Shown in pieces: positions 4,982 to 51,910 of a DNA stretch of 64,000 bases. A program made the translations under genes and the position numbers. Within the stretch, counting starts at the first letter, position 1, and every line of letters starts with the position of its first letter. Location of the stretch: positions 1 to 64,000 of the forward strand of contig CANJBX010000002.1 in NCBI GenBank assembly GCA_947472885.1. Reading direction: 5' to 3'. A model generated the notes under the pieces. The model was not told where the DNA came from. It searched no databases and saw only the letters and a program-made list of their open reading frames with translations. The stretch is from Hyphomicrobiaceae bacterium (GTDB lineage: Bacteria; Pseudomonadota; Alphaproteobacteria; Rhizobiales; Xanthobacteraceae).

Positions 4982-5010
4982 CGCATCCATCCTTCCAGAT
5001 GGTTGCCCTT

Positions 5011-5075
5011 CGGTGGGGAAGGGTGTCCCACCGCCGGAGATAGGCAAACGGACGCGCTTCGTCAAGCGCGTCCGT
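5011..5075 (-). promoter_or_regulatory. Two-hairpin serC leader RNA (candidate serC motif)
   Basis: Reading the minus strand toward serC: hairpin 1 has a perfect 12-bp stem (ACGGACGCGCTT/AAGCGCGTCCGT, 5075-5048) with a 4-base loop. Hairpin 2 is CGGTGGG/CCCACCG (5033-5011) with a 9-base loop and ends about 21-29 bases before the start codon. A conserved 'serC' cis-regulatory RNA motif upstream of serC in alphaproteobacteria is established (Rfam serC family). Position and two-hairpin layout match; membership was not tested. Confidence 0.65.
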
Positions 5076-31001: not shown

Positions 31002-34000
31002 TTATTCCGCCGCCTTCAACAGCGGTGTCGGCGAGGCCCGGAACTGCTCCAGCAGCGCCACTTCCTCAGCTTTGGCGGCCTTGAGGTGGCGCAGCTTGAC
31101 GTGGCCAAAGCCGCGGATTTTTTCCGGGATCGCCGCAAGCCCGACCGCGAGCGGATGGTTCTCCGCCGTCAGCTTGCCTTCGATCTCGCCGAGCAGCGCC
31201 GTGTAGTCCGTAACGAGCTGACGCTCGATCTTGCGCTCCGCCGTGTAGCCGAACGGATCGAGCGCGCCGCCGCGCAGAAATTTGAACTTCGCCAGCGCCC
31301 TGAACACCGGGAAAATCCACGGTCCGAACATGGTCTTCTTCGGCTCGCCGGTGATCTTGTCGCGGCGCGCGAACAGCGGCGGCGCGAGATGGACATGCAG
31401 GCGCAGCTTGTTGCCGCCGACCTCGTTGCCGACCTGCGCGCGGAACGCATCGGTCGAATAAAGCCTGGCGACTTCGTATTCGTCCTTGTAGGCCATCAGC
31501 TTGAACAGATAGCGCGCGACGGCTTCCGACAGTCCGGTCTTGCCCGGTGCCTTCACGTTCTCGATTGTCCTGATCTTCTCGACCAGCGACCTGTAGCGCG
31601 CAGCGTAATTCGCATCCTGATAATCGGTGAGGAACGTCACGCGGCGCGCGACGGTCTCCTCGAACGACTCCGACAGCTTGCGATCCGGATCGCTCACCTT
31701 CGGCGCGGCGAGCTTTTCGATTGCGGTAAGATCGACGGCAGCGCGGCGACCCCAGCGGAACGCCGTGATGTTCATCTTCACGGCTTCGCCGTTGAGTTCG
31801 AGCGCACGCTCGATGGCTTCCGACGACAGCGGCAACGCACCGATCTGGTAGGCGTAACCCAGCATGAACAGGTTTGCGCCGATGGACTGGCCGAGCAACG
31901 CCGTCGCAATGCGCGAGGCGTCGATGAAGTGGCTGTTGTCCGCACCGGCGATGCCGGTGATGGCGCGCTTGAGCCGTTCGACCGGCAGCGAGAATTCCGT
32001 GTTGCGCGTGAAATCGCCGGGCAGCACTTCGGCGGTGTTCACCACCATGCGGGTTGCGCCGGGGCGCACCGCGGCGAGAACCTTTTTATTACCCGCAACG
32101 ACGATGTCGCCGCCCAATACGAGGTCCGCGCGCCGCGCCGCAACGCGAATGGCATGGATATCTTCCGGTCTGTGCGCGATGCGGATATGGCTTTGCACCG
32201 CGCCGCCCTTCTGCGCGAGGCCCGCCATGTCGAGTACGCCGACGCCCTTGCCTTCAAGGTTCGCCGCCATGCCGATGATCGCACCGACCGTCACGATGCC
32301 GGTGCCGCCGACGCCGGTGACGATGATGCCGAAGGTCTGGTCGATGGACGGCAGCACGGGATCGGGCGGCAGCGGCATGTCCGCCGGCACCGCAGCGCCG
32401 TTGCCCCTCTTGAGCGTCGCGCCCTCGACCGTCACGAACGACGGACAGAAGCCGTTGAGGCAGGAGAAATCCTTGTTGCAGCTCGACTGGTCGATGGTGC
32501 GCTTGCGGCCGAATTCGGTTTCAAGCGGCTGCACCGAGACGCAGTTGGATTTCGTGCCGCAGTCGCCGCAGCCTTCGCACACGAGTTCGTTGATGATGAC
32601 GCGCTTCTGCGGATCGGGGAACTGGCCGCGCTTCCTGCGGCGGCGCTTCTCGGCGGCGCAGGTCTGGTCGTAGATCAGGACCGTACAGCCCTCGATCTCC
32701 GCAAGTTCGCGCTGCACGGCGTCAAGTTCGTCGCGGTGATGGATCGTGATGCCCCTGGGCCATTCGGTGCCCCTGGGATATTTCAACGGCTCGTCGGTGA
32801 CGATGGTGACTTTCCTGGCGCCTTCGGCGGCAACCTGCCGCGCGATCTGCGGCACGGTCAGTCCGCCGTCGTTTTTCTGGCCGCCGGTCATGGCGACGGC
32901 GTCGTTGAACAGGATCTTGTAGGTAATGTTGACGTTCGAGGCGATGGCGGCGCGGATCGCCATGTAGCCGGAATGGTTGTAGGTGCCATCGCCGAGATTC
33001 TGGAACACATGGCCACGTTTGGAGAACGGCGCTTCGCCGATCCAGTTGGCGCCCTCGCCGCCCATCTGCGTGAAGCCGGAGGTCGAGCGGTCCATCCACT
33101 GCACCATGAAGTGACAGCCGATGCCGGCATAGGCGCGCATGCCTTCCGGCACGACGGTGGACGAGTTGTGCGGGCAGCCCGAACAGAAATACGGCGAACG
33201 CACCGCGACGTCCTGCGTCTCGGCCAGCACGCGCTGGGCTTCCTTGAGCTTCGTCACGCGGGCGGCAAGTTCCTCGCCCGGCGCATACTTGAGAATGCGA
33301 TCTCCGATACAGATCGCGACATCGTTGGGATCGAGCGCGCCCTTGACCGGGAACAGCCAGTCGCCCTTCTCGTCGCGCTTGCCGATGCAGACCGGCTGGT
33401 TCGCCGTGCCGTAAAGTTCCTCGCGGACCTGCACTTCGATCAGCGAACGCTTTTCCTCGACCACGATGATGAGTTCGAGGCCCTTGGCGAATTCCGCCAG
33501 TTCCTGCCGGCTGATCGGCCACGGACAGCCGATCTTGTGAATGCGCAGGCCGAGGTCGTTGGCGCGCACCTCGTCGATGCCGAGTTCGTCGAGCGCCTGG
33601 CGCACGTCGAGGTACGCTTTACCCGTCGTGATGATGCCGATGCGCGGCGTGCGTCCGCCGGTGGTAATGACCTTGTTGATCTTGTTGGCGCGGATGAACG
33701 CCAGCATGGCGTCGCGCTTGTAGTCGTGCAGCCGCGCTTCCATGCCGAGAATGGAATCACCCAAGCGGATATTCAGCCCGCCCGGCGGCATCATGAAGTC
33801 GGTCGGCTGGATAATCTCGATGCGTTCGGGATGACCTTCGATGACGGCGGTCGATTCCACCGTCTCGTGCATGCATTTGAGGCCGACCCACGCGCCAGTG
33901 TAGCGCGACATTGCCCAGCCGAGGATGCCGTAGTCGATGATCTCCTGCACGCCGGCCGGATTGAGAATCGGGATCATGACGTCGAGAAAATTGAATTCGC

Positions 34001-34490
34001 TTTGATGCGCGGTGGTGGAGGATTCCGCCGTATGGTCGTCGCCCATCAGCGCAAGAATACCGCCATGCTGCGAAGTGCCGGCCGAATTGGCGTGGCGCAG
34101 CACGTCGCCGGAGCGGTCGACACCCGGCCCCTTGCCGTACCAGATGCCAAACACGCCGTCGTATTTGCCTTCGCCGCGCAATTCCGCCTGCTGGGAACCC
34201 CACAACGCCGTGGCCGCGAGGTCCTCGTTGATGCCGCTCTGGAACACGATGTCGTTGGGGCGAAGGAGCCCCTCCGCACGCTGGAACTGGTTGTCGAGGC
34301 CGCCGAGCGGCGAGCCGCGGTAGCCGGTGACGTAACCCGCGGTATTGAGGCCGGCCGCGCGGTCGCGGGCCTTCTGCATCAGGGTCATGCGGACGAGCGC
34401 CTGATAGCCGGTGACGAACACACGGCTCTGGGCGAGGTCGTACTTGTCCGCCAGGGAAACGTCCCGCAACGGCGTGTTCCGCAGTACCAT
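31002..34490 (-). CDS. Indolepyruvate ferredoxin oxidoreductase family protein, fused alpha/beta/gamma
   Basis: 1162 residues joining all catalytic parts of an arylpyruvate:ferredoxin oxidoreductase: an N-terminal pyrimidine-binding domain (GYRGSPLGGLD), a TPP-binding domain (about 430-590; GGEGANWIGEAPF, LGDGTYNHSGY), a Cys-rich ferredoxin-like segment (about 633-673; CEGCGDCGTKSNC and CNKDFSCLNGFC) and a C-terminal gamma domain (about 720-900; GVGGTGIVTVGAIIG, GLAQKGGAVQSH). It decarboxylates indolepyruvate or phenylpyruvate to arylacetyl-CoA and reduces ferredoxin. Start chosen at MVLRNTPLRD. Monocistronic here; a similar gene in other proteobacteria serves aromatic amino acid breakdown. 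Confidence 0.93.
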   Translation of the reverse strand: MVLRNTPLRDVSLADKYDLAQSRVFVTGYQALVRMTLMQKARDRAAGLNTAGYVTGYRGSPLGGLDNQFQRAEGLLRPNDIVFQSGINEDLAATALWGSQQAELRGEGKYDGVFGIWYGKGPGVDRSGDVLRHANSAGTSQHGGILALMGDDHTAESSTTAHQSEFNFLDVMIPILNPAGVQEIIDYGILGWAMSRYTGAWVGLKCMHETVESTAVIEGHPERIEIIQPTDFMMPPGGLNIRLGDSILGMEARLHDYKRDAMLAFIRANKINKVITTGGRTPRIGIITTGKAYLDVRQALDELGIDEVRANDLGLRIHKIGCPWPISRQELAEFAKGLELIIVVEEKRSLIEVQVREELYGTANQPVCIGKRDEKGDWLFPVKGALDPNDVAICIGDRILKYAPGEELAARVTKLKEAQRVLAETQDVAVRSPYFCSGCPHNSSTVVPEGMRAYAGIGCHFMVQWMDRSTSGFTQMGGEGANWIGEAPFSKRGHVFQNLGDGTYNHSGYMAIRAAIASNVNITYKILFNDAVAMTGGQKNDGGLTVPQIARQVAAEGARKVTIVTDEPLKYPRGTEWPRGITIHHRDELDAVQRELAEIEGCTVLIYDQTCAAEKRRRRKRGQFPDPQKRVIINELVCEGCGDCGTKSNCVSVQPLETEFGRKRTIDQSSCNKDFSCLNGFCPSFVTVEGATLKRGNGAAVPADMPLPPDPVLPSIDQTFGIIVTGVGGTGIVTVGAIIGMAANLEGKGVGVLDMAGLAQKGGAVQSHIRIAHRPEDIHAIRVAARRADLVLGGDIVVAGNKKVLAAVRPGATRMVVNTAEVLPGDFTRNTEFSLPVERLKRAITGIAGADNSHFIDASRIATALLGQSIGANLFMLGYAYQIGALPLSSEAIERALELNGEAVKMNITAFRWGRRAAVDLTAIEKLAAPKVSDPDRKLSESFEETVARRVTFLTDYQDANYAARYRSLVEKIRTIENVKAPGKTGLSEAVARYLFKLMAYKDEYEVARLYSTDAFRAQVGNEVGGNKLRLHVHLAPPLFARRDKITGEPKKTMFGPWIFPVFRALAKFKFLRGGALDPFGYTAERKIERQLVTDYTALLGEIEGKLTAENHPLAVGLAAIPEKIRGFGHVKLRHLKAAKAEEVALLEQFRASPTPLLKAAE

Positions 34491-34737
34491 CGCCCACTCT
34501 CTCCGCGGCGGGTACAAGGTCCGCCGCTTTCGCAACCCCCTTATAGCTGCCGCATCCAGCGTTAGGAAGGCCGCTATTTCAGTAAGATAGGGTCAATTTG
34601 GCACGCCAGCCAGCGGTTGCCGGAGGGCTGGCCGCAGAAATTTTCTCATGGGCTCGCCAGAAGGGCATTTCCAGCCCTCGGAACCACAAAAGCTATCGCG
34701 AATGGAAGCGGTGCAGGTAGCGGCATCGGCAGCGCGC

Positions 34738-36103: not shown

Positions 36104-36207
36104 TGTCTGCGTTTCCTGAGTTGCTGGCATTCCCGCGCGCGGGAGCTTTTCGGTTGGCGATAGGCTAAAACACTTTCCAACCAAAAGCACCGACGGGAGA
36201 AACGCCA

Positions 36208-37740
36208 ATGCGGACCTTGCAAACCTTTCGCAATGCGGCTTGGCTGGCCGCCATCAGCGGAACCCTGGTCATGAGCGCGCAGGCGGCAGAACAAAAACGC
36301 GATCCGTTTTACTGGTTGAGCGAGATGAACAAGGCGTCCGCCGTGATGGTGGTCGAGCAGAACATCGTCCCGAAGGAGCTTGGCGCCAGGATCGCCGATG
36401 CGGTGTCGCAGGTCATTGCCGACGGCGACAAGCCGGGCGCGGGCCGTTCCGGCAACTACCTCATCGTCGAGCGCGACCTCGTCAAGGTGGGCGGGCCGGA
36501 TATCACGCGGCTGCATTCCGGCCGCAGCCGGCAGGACATCGGCTCGACCGCGCAGCGGCTCGCCATGCGCGACGACCTCCTTGCCGCCTTCGACAAACTG
36601 AATGCTGCGCGTGACGTGCTGCTGGCGCTGGCCGCGAAACACCCCGATGCGATCATCCCCGCTTACACCTGGGGCGTGCAGGCGCAGCCCGTAACGCTCG
36701 GCCATTATATCCTTGCCTATTCGTCGGCCTTCGCACGCACCGCCGAGCGGATGCGCGAGGCTTACGCGCGGCTCAACCGTTCGCCGTTTGGCGCAGCGGC
36801 GCTTGGCACATCGAGCTTTCCGGTCAATCGCCCGCGCCTTGCCGAATTGCTTGGCTTCGACGGGCTGATCGAGAATTCGCTCGACGCCAACCAGATTTCT
36901 CCGATCGACAGCGGCGCGGAACTCGTGAGCCTCGCGGAAGCGGGCGCGCTCACCATCGGCACGCTGATTGCGGACATTACCCAGCAATATTCCCAATCCC
37001 AGCCGTGGTTCCTGATGACCGAGGGTGAACTCACCGGCACGTCGAGCATCATGCCGCAGAAGCGCAATCCTTCCGGCCTCGTGTTCCTGCGCGCGCAGGC
37101 ATCGACCGTCATCGGTCACGCGCAGACCTTCGTGATGGTCGCGCATAACGTCGCCGCCGGCATGAGCGACTACAAGCCGTCCATCAATCCGTTGCAGGGC
37201 AACCAGCCCAACAACGTGATGCGCGAGGCGGCGGCGCTGTACGACCAGTTCGCCGCGATCATGAAGACGATTGTGTTCAATCCGCCGCGCGCGCTCGCGG
37301 AAGTCGATGGCGATTATTCGACGACCACGGAACTTGCCGACACCTTGCAGCGCGTCGCCGACGTCCCGTTCCGCGTTGGGCATCATTTCGCATCGGAGGT
37401 GGTGAACTACGGGCGCGGCAATAATCTGAAACCCTCGGAAATTCCCTATGCCGAAGCGCAGCGCATCTACACCGAGGCGGCGAAGGGCGCAAAACTCGCC
37501 GACGACAAGCTGCCACTCACCGAAGAACAGTTCCGCAAGTCGCTGACCGCGCAGAACATGGTGGAGGCGAGCCAGGGCATCGGCGGGCCGCAGCCATCGG
37601 AAGTCGCGCGCATGTTGAAGGCCGAACAGATCAAGTTGATGAATGACCGCAAGTGGCTCGACGACCGCCGCAACAGCCTTGCGGCAGCGGCGAAGAATCT
37701 CGACATGGTGTTTGCGAAGCTGAAGGCGAATGCAAAGTAG
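36208..37740 (+). CDS. Exported argininosuccinate lyase-like protein of the fumarase/aspartase superfamily
   Basis: 510 residues. Residues 1-27 form a Sec signal peptide (AWLAAISGTLVMSAQA), unusual for this cytoplasmic enzyme superfamily. The body carries ASL motifs: LHSGRSRQD (102-110), QAQPVTLGHYILAY (158-171), SPFGAAALGTSSFP and the superfamily signature GTSSIMPQKRNP (277-288) with its catalytic Ser. Where ASL has Thr-His in the THLQ motif, this protein has Thr-Trp (YTWGVQ, Trp 155). GGGAG is 9 bases before the ATG. Divergent from the acyl-CoA dehydrogenase with a 104-base gap. True substrate unknown; it probably acts in the periplasm. Confidence 0.8.
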   Translation: MRTLQTFRNAAWLAAISGTLVMSAQAAEQKRDPFYWLSEMNKASAVMVVEQNIVPKELGARIADAVSQVIADGDKPGAGRSGNYLIVERDLVKVGGPDITRLHSGRSRQDIGSTAQRLAMRDDLLAAFDKLNAARDVLLALAAKHPDAIIPAYTWGVQAQPVTLGHYILAYSSAFARTAERMREAYARLNRSPFGAAALGTSSFPVNRPRLAELLGFDGLIENSLDANQISPIDSGAELVSLAEAGALTIGTLIADITQQYSQSQPWFLMTEGELTGTSSIMPQKRNPSGLVFLRAQASTVIGHAQTFVMVAHNVAAGMSDYKPSINPLQGNQPNNVMREAAALYDQFAAIMKTIVFNPPRALAEVDGDYSTTTELADTLQRVADVPFRVGHHFASEVVNYGRGNNLKPSEIPYAEAQRIYTEAAKGAKLADDKLPLTEEQFRKSLTAQNMVEASQGIGGPQPSEVARMLKAEQIKLMNDRKWLDDRRNSLAAAAKNLDMVFAKLKANAK

Positions 37741-39884: not shown

Positions 39885-41282
39885 TTACAACCGATGCGGC
39901 AACCAGGTCGCAAGCCCCGGCAGGAACCACAGCGCCACCAGCGCCAGCATCTGGATCAGCACGAACGGAATGATCCCGAGATAAATATCCATCGTGGTGA
40001 TTTCCTTTGGCGCGACGCCGCGCAGGTAGAACAGCGTCGGGCCGAGCGGCGGATGGATGTAGGACATCTGCAGGTTCATCGCGATCATGATGCCGAGCCA
40101 GACCGGATCGACGCCGGGCATCTTCAGCAATATCGGCGCGACAATCGGCACCACCACGAAGATGATCTCGAAGGCGTCCATCACGAAGCCAAGCAGGAAC
40201 AGCGCGAGCATCACGGCCAGCACCGCGCCTGACGTGCCGCCCGGCAGATCGGTCAGTGCGCGGTTGACGAGATCGTCGCCGCCGAAGCCGCGGAACACCA
40301 GGCTGAACAGGGTCGCGCCGATGAGAATGAGAAAGATCATGCTGGAAATCTGCGCCGTGCGTTGCAGCACCGGCACCATGACCTCGTTGATCCATGACGA
40401 CTTCGCACCGGACCTGAAAACAGCGAGCAAAATCGCACCGACGGCGCCGATGGACGCCGACTCCGATGGCGTCGCGATGCCGCCCAGAATAGATCCCAGC
40501 ACCGCGAGGATCAGCAGCAGCGGCGCGACCATGACGGCAGCGAGCCGCCGCGCCAGCGCGAAGCCATGCGGCGCATCCGGTTCGGGCGGAATCGCCGGCG
40601 AACTCTTGGGAAACAGCACCGCGACCGCGATCAAGAACAGCAGATACAGAAACACGAGCCCGAACGCAGGAATGATCGCACCGGCGAACAGGTCGCTGAC
40701 CGTCACCGTCTGCGGCGAGAACACGCCCTTCGACAATTGCGCCGCCTGATAGGCGTTGCTGAGTTGGTCGCCGAGCAACACCAGCACCGTTGCGGGCGGA
40801 AAAATCTGCGCCAGCGTCGCGGTCGCGGCGACCGTGCCTGCCGCCAGCCTTTTGTCATAGCCGTGCCGCAGCATGGTCGGCAGCACGATCAACCCCATCG
40901 TCACGGTCGTTGCGCCGACAATGCCCTTCGCCGCAGCGAGCAATACGCCGACCAGCAGCACCGCAATCGCAAGCCCGCCGGTGAACGTGCCGAACAGCCG
41001 GGCCATGGTCTCAAGCAAATCCTCCGCGATGCGCGAGCGTTCCAGCATCACGCCCATGAACACAAACAGCGGGATAGCGATCAGCACATCGTTGGTGACG
41101 ACGCCGAACACGCGCGGCGGCAATGCAAGCAGCAGCGAGATCGGAAAGATGCCGAACGCATCGCCGAGCAGCGCGAAGATGAGCGAAGTGCCGCCCAGGG
41201 TCAGCGCAACCGGGTAGCCGGCCATCAGCGCGGCGCACATGGCGGCGACCATGACGATAGCTAGGATTTCGGGAAGCGGCAT
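39885..41282 (-). CDS. dctM: TRAP transporter large permease subunit (DctM)
   Basis: 465 residues, about 12 hydrophobic segments. The DctM/DedA-like motifs FVFMGVMLERSRIAEDLLETM and AAAKGIVGATTVTMGLIVLPTML are visible. It exchanges a small organic acid with sodium or protons across the inner membrane. Its ATG follows the dctQ stop by 13 bases. Length is somewhat above the usual 425; an extra 40 residues lie in the loop around FPKSSPAIPPEPDAPHG (about 215-240). Confidence 0.9.
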   Translation of the reverse strand: MPLPEILAIVMVAAMCAALMAGYPVALTLGGTSLIFALLGDAFGIFPISLLLALPPRVFGVVTNDVLIAIPLFVFMGVMLERSRIAEDLLETMARLFGTFTGGLAIAVLLVGVLLAAAKGIVGATTVTMGLIVLPTMLRHGYDKRLAAGTVAATATLAQIFPPATVLVLLGDQLSNAYQAAQLSKGVFSPQTVTVSDLFAGAIIPAFGLVFLYLLFLIAVAVLFPKSSPAIPPEPDAPHGFALARRLAAVMVAPLLLILAVLGSILGGIATPSESASIGAVGAILLAVFRSGAKSSWINEVMVPVLQRTAQISSMIFLILIGATLFSLVFRGFGGDDLVNRALTDLPGGTSGAVLAVMLALFLLGFVMDAFEIIFVVVPIVAPILLKMPGVDPVWLGIMIAMNLQMSYIHPPLGPTLFYLRGVAPKEITTMDIYLGIIPFVLIQMLALVALWFLPGLATWLPHRL

Positions 41283-41295
41283 GGCTATTCCGCCG

Positions 41296-41808
41296 TTATT
41301 CTGGCTTGGCCGACAACACGCGGCACGCGCGGATCGCCTGCGCGAGCACCTGCAACGCCAGCAGAAGCGCGAATAACGGAATAAGCGTCTTCAAAAGCCA
41401 GACCAGCGGCAGGCCGCCGACCTCGCGCGACCGCTCGAGAATGGCCCATGACCGTGTGACATAAGGCAGCGAAAGCCAGATCAGCGCCGCCATGAACGGC
41501 AGCAGCAGCAGAATGGCGCCCAGAAGATCGACGCGCGCCTTCGCCCGTTCGGACATGCCGGAATAGCAGATGTCGACGCGGACATGACCACCCGCCCACA
41601 GCGTCCACGCCGCCGTCATCAGGATCAACACTGCGTGAGCGTAAACGACTGATTCCTGAAGCCAAATCGAGCCAGTGCCGAACACATAGCGCAGCACGAC
41701 CACCAGAAACTGCACGGCCACCATGACAAGTACGGCCCACGCCGCACCGCGGCCAACGGCGGCGTTCAGGCGGTCAATACGGTCGGCAACTGTGGTCAGC
41801 GGCATCAT
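41296..41808 (-). CDS. dctQ: TRAP transporter small permease subunit (DctQ)
   Basis: 170 residues with four membrane segments (AAWAVLVMVAVQFLVVVLRYV, VLILMTAAWTLWAGG, LLGAILLLLPFMAALIWLSL, WLLKTLIPLFALLLALQVLAQ). HVRVDICYSGMSERAKARVDLLG is the conserved small-subunit loop. It is the membrane partner of DctM. No DctP-type substrate-binding gene is found in the window, so the receptor is encoded elsewhere or the system uses another one. Confidence 0.88.
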   Translation of the reverse strand: MMPLTTVADRIDRLNAAVGRGAAWAVLVMVAVQFLVVVLRYVFGTGSIWLQESVVYAHAVLILMTAAWTLWAGGHVRVDICYSGMSERAKARVDLLGAILLLLPFMAALIWLSLPYVTRSWAILERSREVGGLPLVWLLKTLIPLFALLLALQVLAQAIRACRVLSAKPE

Positions 41809-51484: not shown

Positions 51485-51910
51485 GGCGCTCTCCCCACAG
51501 CTAAAAGGACGCGCAAACGTCCGATGATGCGGATTAGCGAGCCCACTATCAGCGCGCTATGGAAACGCGCCGGATAGCAAAACCCGTTACCGCTAAGCTG
51601 CCTTGGATTGGATTGGGAAGAATCCCCGCCCCGCCCGGTCGGCAATGATGAACAAGCCTCTACGGTGACCCGCGCCGGTGATGGAAACCGGCAGAGACGA
51701 TAGAAGCTCATTCCGTCGTTGCTTTAAGGCGCGTCCCCTGTTTGAGAGCAGGGTTTGCCGGTTTCGCCTCCGGCTGCCAGTCGAATGTTCGGAGCTAGTA
51801 GCGACCGAAAAGTCTTGCGACTTCTTGATCTCACTCCGGGCGGCTGTCCGGCCTCTTGTCCGGATGCCCACCGACTGACACACGCCCACAGGCACGTGCG
51901 AAATTGAGCA
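51485..51910 (-). promoter_or_regulatory. Long structured leader of the ODC gene (candidate speF RNA motif)
   Basis: About 430 bases without an ordinary gene, holding a series of hairpins on the minus strand. Examples: GCCGG/CCGGC at 51757-51774, CCCCTG/CAGGG at 51735-51753, GCCGG/CCGGC at 51674-51692, and GGACG/CGTCC at 51507-51522 just before the ribosome binding site. A conserved speF RNA element in front of ornithine decarboxylase genes of alphaproteobacteria is established. Membership is inferred from gene identity and structure. Bases 51911-52041 hold the palindrome TTAACAGCTGTTAA (51984-51997) and likely the promoter. Confidence 0.6.

Follow-up and report, generated by a model that had tools for sequence, protein, structure and literature searches.

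Locus and protein features

The window, a stretch of 64,000 nucleotides analysed as a whole, carries an open reading frame at 36208-37740 (plus strand) whose product, P0001, has Trp155 in the aligned catalytic-His column; both points of the original prediction were confirmed, the second by alignment. The features of the gene and protein are as follows.

36208-37740, plus strand: P0001, an exported protein of 510 residues resembling lyases of the argininosuccinate lyase (ASL) superfamily, with Lyase_1 and ASL_C2 domains and matching folds
36195-36199, plus strand: Shine-Dalgarno-like GGGAG, separated by 8 bases from the ATG, from the sequence
36208-36285, plus strand: Sec-type signal peptide, residues 1-26, read from the sequence, with pLDDT below 50 nearly throughout; relatives L013-L016 are without it
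36514-36537, plus strand: HSGRSRQD, residues 103-110 (H..RSRND in ASL, Gln109 replacing Asn), from the alignment
36667-36672, plus strand: Thr154-Trp155 at the Thr-His site of ASL (Gln159 in EDDS lyase), from the alignment
37033-37071, plus strand: SS loop, residues 276-288 TGTSSIMPQKRNP, with the presumed base Ser279; Ser279, Ser280, Lys285 and Asn287 are invariant (n = 54)
37081-37083, plus strand: Val292 at the relay-Glu site (E296 in duck and E294 in goose delta-crystallin), from the alignment; the role of the Glu is taken from PMC2779060
37144-37176, plus strand: HNxxxGMxDYK motif, residues 313-323, common to the clade and its sister, from the alignment

The start ATG has a good predicted ribosome-binding site. 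The gene is flanked by a divergent acyl-CoA dehydrogenase gene on one side and a convergent SDR gene on the other, and no transporter gene adjoins it, the nearest being TRAP DctM and DctQ genes (39885-41808, minus strand) 2 kb off on the opposite strand, with no DctP seen adjoining them. Elsewhere in the window, the minus strand carries a gene for a 1177-residue indolepyruvate ferredoxin oxidoreductase-like protein with POR, TPP and DUF6537 domains (31002-34535) and Rfam matches to a serC leader (4982-5033), a speF leader (51534-51693) and the sRNA ar45 (51702-51909), the last directly adjoining the speF leader.

The AlphaFold model of P0001 (pLDDT 83) has the ASL/EDDS lyase-like superfamily fold, and EDDS lyase provides its nearest solved structures (sequence E 1e-50; fold Z 37, versus Z 32-35 for ASL). 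The ASL signature GTSSIMPQKRNP corresponds to residues 277-288, an intact SS loop carrying the superfamily pattern GSSxxPxKxN with its catalytic Ser. This signature and HSGRSRQD had been described as kept, and both are indeed present, but the Asn of RSRND is Gln109, which is invariant across the clade. The KGLPLAYxKDMQ segment of ASL aligns with HNxxxGMxDYK in the P0001 clade and its sister.

Phylogeny and distribution

A scan of GTDB contigs identified 14 relatives of P0001 with 53-71% identity, 13 with Trp and one (L017) with Val in the relay-His column; L005/L027, a 72% relative, belongs to a different genome within the window's family. Over all 54 His-less members this column contains Asn in 39, Trp in 14 and Val in one. 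In the main tree, from which N-terminal extensions were excluded, the window's protein and the other Trp proteins, 14 in all, group together with support of 100/99, the Val protein L017 lying inside the supported branch. A second group (95/93) holds 25 Asn proteins, and the Trp and Asn groups together make a single His-less clade (100/96). The sister of this clade (98/91) is signal-less, belongs to Burkholderiales and keeps both His and Glu. A larger, quicker tree again recovered the His-less clade as a single branch and grouped the Asn proteins L056-L060 with the Trp proteins, and the Asn/Trp split is therefore less sure than the single loss of His.

The tree had been proposed as a means of seeing whether exported Trp155 forms make a clade, and the Trp forms do. 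The suggestion of altered chemistry also stands, although the defining change is the loss of the His-Glu pair in the wider clade and not the Trp itself. Trp as a change specific to export was considered and rejected, as Asn predominates in the exported clade and the signal is missing from some members of both the Trp and the Asn type.

The distribution is patchy. Among 149 genomes sampled from the family, 9 carry the gene (E 1e-50), as do 5 of the 397 from the order and 38 of the 349 from the order of Ramlibacter, while in the sample of 289 from the class the window's own copy is the sole one. The samples overlap, and the genome on which each was centred is counted in it. Searching plasmids with an ad hoc consensus fragment yielded nothing further.

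Relay loss and active site

The His-Glu relay is thought to protonate the leaving group. Every His-keeping row of the alignment has the relay Glu, and every Trp, Asn or Val row is without it, the Glu column of the 54 His-less members containing Asn (30), Val (14), Met (5), Ile (3), Gln (1) and Thr (1). Because the Glu partner is lost together with His in 54 of 54 members, the whole relay is gone; the pair is Trp155/Val292 here and mostly Asn/Asn elsewhere. The remainder of the active site, comprising the Ser pair of the SS loop and the conserved Thr, Lys and Asn, is kept: Ser279, Ser280, Lys285, Asn287, Thr154 and His103 never vary (n = 54), in a set whose majority identity averages 59%. The corresponding His of delta-crystallin forms a bond with the Glu (E294 in goose, E296 in duck) and the E294L variant keeps about 10% activity (PMC2779060), while H162N of duck delta-2 crystallin was deposited as inactive (title of 1dcn); Asn is the commonest state in the His-less clade.

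The same paired loss has occurred separately among PcaB relatives, where GRTHLQQA goes with E and GRSNLQQA with V or L, and PcaB members scoring above the TIGR02426 cut-off show it. The PcaB-type proteins examined (L086, L090, L092 and L093 versus L089 and L091) split into Asn/no-Glu and His/Glu kinds, and the window's genome itself carries an Asn-kind PcaB-type protein on contig C36. The relay His, described originally as an important catalytic residue, is so for ASL, but its loss has precedents elsewhere in the superfamily, namely EDDS lyase (Gln159), CreD (Leu170) and some PcaB proteins (Asn). Given the paired loss in the clade and among PcaB relatives, together with CreD working without the His, the simplest inference is that leaving-group protonation is not needed here. 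Another active-site His would have spoken against altered chemistry, and no compensating residue was identified; His313 was considered as a replacement acid and rejected, as it is no less invariant in the sister clade, where the relay is retained.

Signal peptide and export

The signal peptide of P0001, MRTLQTFRNAAWLAAISGTLVMSAQA followed by AEQ, has a basic n-region, an uncharged h-region and an A-x-A end. AlphaFold confidence stays below 50 across almost the whole of residues 1-26 and is about 90 at residue 31 and beyond, and the conserved core starts at about residue 32. The N-termini of most close relatives are unrelated in sequence yet equally signal-like, and in four relatives (L013-L016) the first residue stands directly at the conserved core. 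The mature core of P0001 has no Cys, as is the case for 34 of 40 signal-bearing His-less members and none of 14 signal-less ones, which contain 1-9 Cys each (1-5 in the sister clade); the contrast between signal-bearing and signal-less members has p ~1e-9, a value uncorrected for kinship. Export of the signal-bearing members is supported independently by these almost Cys-free mature cores, and the signal peptide of P0001 should direct its Cys-free mature form through Sec.

The Sec signal peptide was thus borne out by sequence make-up, low model confidence, the N-termini of relatives and the Cys-free core. Judged by its signal peptide and Cys-free core, P0001 departs from the cytoplasmic location expected of ASL. 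The broader claim that ASL-superfamily lyases are cytoplasmic needs qualifying too, as exported ‘argininosuccinate lyases’ have been listed before in Achromobacter (PMC11533796). The signal is a labile trait, with six gains or losses on the larger tree; the Trp-type L013-L016 and the Asn-type L122-L131 are without it. Five Asn-type proteins of one sub-branch (L021, L022, L028, L029 and L044) have an added two-Cys segment, PCKTTQEC, between signal and core, the cysteines of which perhaps form a disulfide.

Gene neighbourhood and transporters

The loci compared were 54 related loci, the window and 14 sister-clade loci, and DcuC and TctC were identified using Pfam and NCBIfam. DcuC lies directly downstream on the same strand, within 89 bases, in nine of the ten signal-less Asn-type loci L122-L131 (L122-L130) and at 2.8 kb in L131. 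TctC is found within 1.5 kb in 9 of 14 sister-clade loci, and a TctC gene precedes the signal-less Trp-type L016 within the same distance. By comparison, 5 of 39 signal-bearing loci have DcuC or TctC nearby (Fisher p 2.5e-5 overall and 4e-4 inside the His-less clade, two signal calls, L135 as signal-bearing and L112 as unresolved, being doubtful). A kinship-aware contrast of six independent pairs, of which 4-5 were as expected, was not significant (sign test p ~0.4). In four genomes with both kinds of paralogue, DcuC adjoins the signal-less copies only. The transporter linkage gives fair but not firm backing to a C4-dicarboxylate-like substrate or product.

The genomes carrying L122-L131 (G1164, G848, G939, G1015, G1076 and G978) are small Burkholderiales genomes with several lyase copies each, and their signal-less copies probably form operons with the DcuC gene that follows, with a LysR gene nearby. 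FAD reductases that bear a Tat signal or other signal lie near several lyases (L118:7599-9128, L123:1069-2778 and L124:10660-12198); two of them match flavocytochrome c (TIGR01813), and a flavocytochrome c of this fumarate-reductase type stands beside the signal-bearing L118. Within the Trp clade the neighbours vary, including luciferase-like monooxygenases, amidohydrolases, TPP enzymes, a Rieske oxygenase, TctC, a GMC oxidoreductase and PrpF, and no pathway could be fixed from them, as they differ from locus to locus.

Proposed function

Catalysis has most likely been kept in the exported branch, with changes to its acid-base apparatus. On balance P0001, which belongs to an uncharacterised clade of the aspartase/fumarase (ASL) superfamily, is probably an exported beta-eliminase. 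The best reading of the clade enzyme is a mostly periplasmic C4-dicarboxylate beta-eliminase in which the serine base is kept and the leaving-group acid is not needed. Ser279 would take the C-beta proton off a 2-substituted succinate, the resulting aci-carboxylate intermediate would collapse, and the substituent would depart without general-acid help, which implies a natural leaving group that is probably either weakly basic or protonated by solvent. The reaction would yield fumarate or a closely similar unsaturated dicarboxylate, freed in the periplasm and taken up via ordinary dicarboxylate carriers. In lineages without the signal, whether it was lost or never present, an importer (DcuC or TctC) is often found alongside, which would fit intracellular use of the same kind of substrate.

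More tentatively, these widespread proteobacterial periplasmic lyases without a leaving-group acid may as a whole convert an unrecognised environmental substituted succinate, outside the cytoplasm, to fumarate or a similar dicarboxylate, some lineages having returned the enzyme to the inside by dropping the signal and pairing it with DcuC or TctC. One lead, by annotation, to a possible substrate is mercaptosuccinate, on which the ‘putative argininosuccinate lyase’ MIM_c16970 of Advenella is upregulated 6.4-fold (PMC5373536). If active, the clade would provide superfamily lyases working outside the cytoplasm and a natural test of the debated need for leaving-group protonation, which was named as unresolved in a 2026 paper on CreD (PMC13411527). 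The paired exported and cytoplasmic forms, some of them in one genome, would make location and uptake testable side by side, and the enzyme may point to compounds of a new class that bacteria use.

Alternative explanations

Relatives of P0001 are named argininosuccinate lyase in public records, and argH (TIGR00838) is its best NCBIfam match at 228.8 bits. That score is nevertheless under the curated cut-off of 279.5 bits, the catalytic His and Glu are gone (Trp155, Val292), the KGLPLAYxKDMQ segment is replaced, and the genome already has a canonical argH on contig C83 with FTHLQ, HTARSRND and NPDAAE. Being below the cut-off, and with the canonical gene elsewhere, P0001 is not the genome's ASL; a true but exported argininosuccinate lyase is scarcely credible, and the database label is almost certainly wrong for the His-less clade.

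Reactions of the PcaB (CMLE) and trans-aconitate decarboxylase type do not require a leaving-group acid. An exported, non-eliminating enzyme with this fold, such as an isomerase, a lactonising cycloisomerase or a decarboxylase, would accord with the paired His/Glu loss in PcaB members above the cut-off, with the fold that Tad1 and CMLE share with P0001 by structure comparison, and with the neighbours of some relatives: PrpF for L013 and L014, and amidohydrolases or a Rieske oxygenase for L006, L007 and L010. Such an activity is unlikely, however, as the sequence is clearly nearer to ASL and EDDS lyase than to PcaB (TIGR02426 score 62.5 bits, cut-off 355.75) and the neighbours are not conserved. 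The chemistry of the aspartase/fumarase (ASL) superfamily is reversible, and the enzyme could instead work outside the cell in the direction of addition, joining a nucleophile (thiol, amine or sulfite) to fumarate or a comparable acceptor, just as EDDS lyase serves for adding amines (PMC12363623); the NCBIfam models for coenzyme-M synthesis enzymes also give scores (XcbC 178 and XcbD 38 bits), both far below their cut-offs. We consider this synthetic direction very unlikely, as biosynthetic neighbours are absent at the loci compared and the linkage to dicarboxylate uptake suggests catabolism. The absence of relay His and Glu, and the inactive H162N crystallin, would suit a non-catalytic periplasmic binding or sensing protein, akin to the ASL-derived binding protein of the original prediction. 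This proposal is weakened by the invariant SS loop and the other invariant active-site residues, and the signal-bearing copies show no steady transporter linkage; it is distinctly unlikely.

Comparison with known enzymes

No paper on a characterised exported member of the clade was found in literature searches. P0001 shares with ASL and delta-crystallin the fold, the SS loop, the H..RSR.D region and the ASL_C2 domain, and differs from them in the loss of the relay, RSRQD for RSRND, the replaced KGLPLAYxKDMQ segment, the signal peptide and the sub-threshold argH score. Several members of PcaB/CMLE are likewise without both His and Glu (Asn with Val or Leu); theirs is a separate family of cycloisomerases with no known export. 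Three Achromobacter xylosoxidans ‘argininosuccinate lyases’ (A0A0D6FWL1, A0A0D6I447 and A0A0D6IQY6) are predicted Tat substrates found in periplasmic fractions, which the authors warn were contaminated with cytosol (PMC11533796). Likened to P0001 by description only, they are exported and carry the same annotation, with Tat predicted instead of the Sec of P0001, and possibly belong to the Asn-type branch.

The nitrosuccinate lyase CreD, also of the superfamily, is active with Leu170 in place of the relay His (PMC13411527), but it is distant kin and acts in a different pathway, in which nitrosuccinate gives fumarate and nitrite. The EDDS lyase of Chelativorans sp. BNC1 (6g3d and related entries) resembles P0001 in its SS loop and in the replacement of the relay His by Gln159, an active-site residue at which an active engineered variant has Cys (PMC12363623); it has about 28% identity to P0001, keeps the relay Glu and has no known export. 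Of the six EDDS lyase residues picked for mutagenesis in PMC12363623, R112 and N288 are kept (R108 and N287 in P0001), whereas N113, Q159, D290 and Y320 are replaced by Q109, W155, S289 and M319, so that P0001 shares two of six positions of this active-site set.
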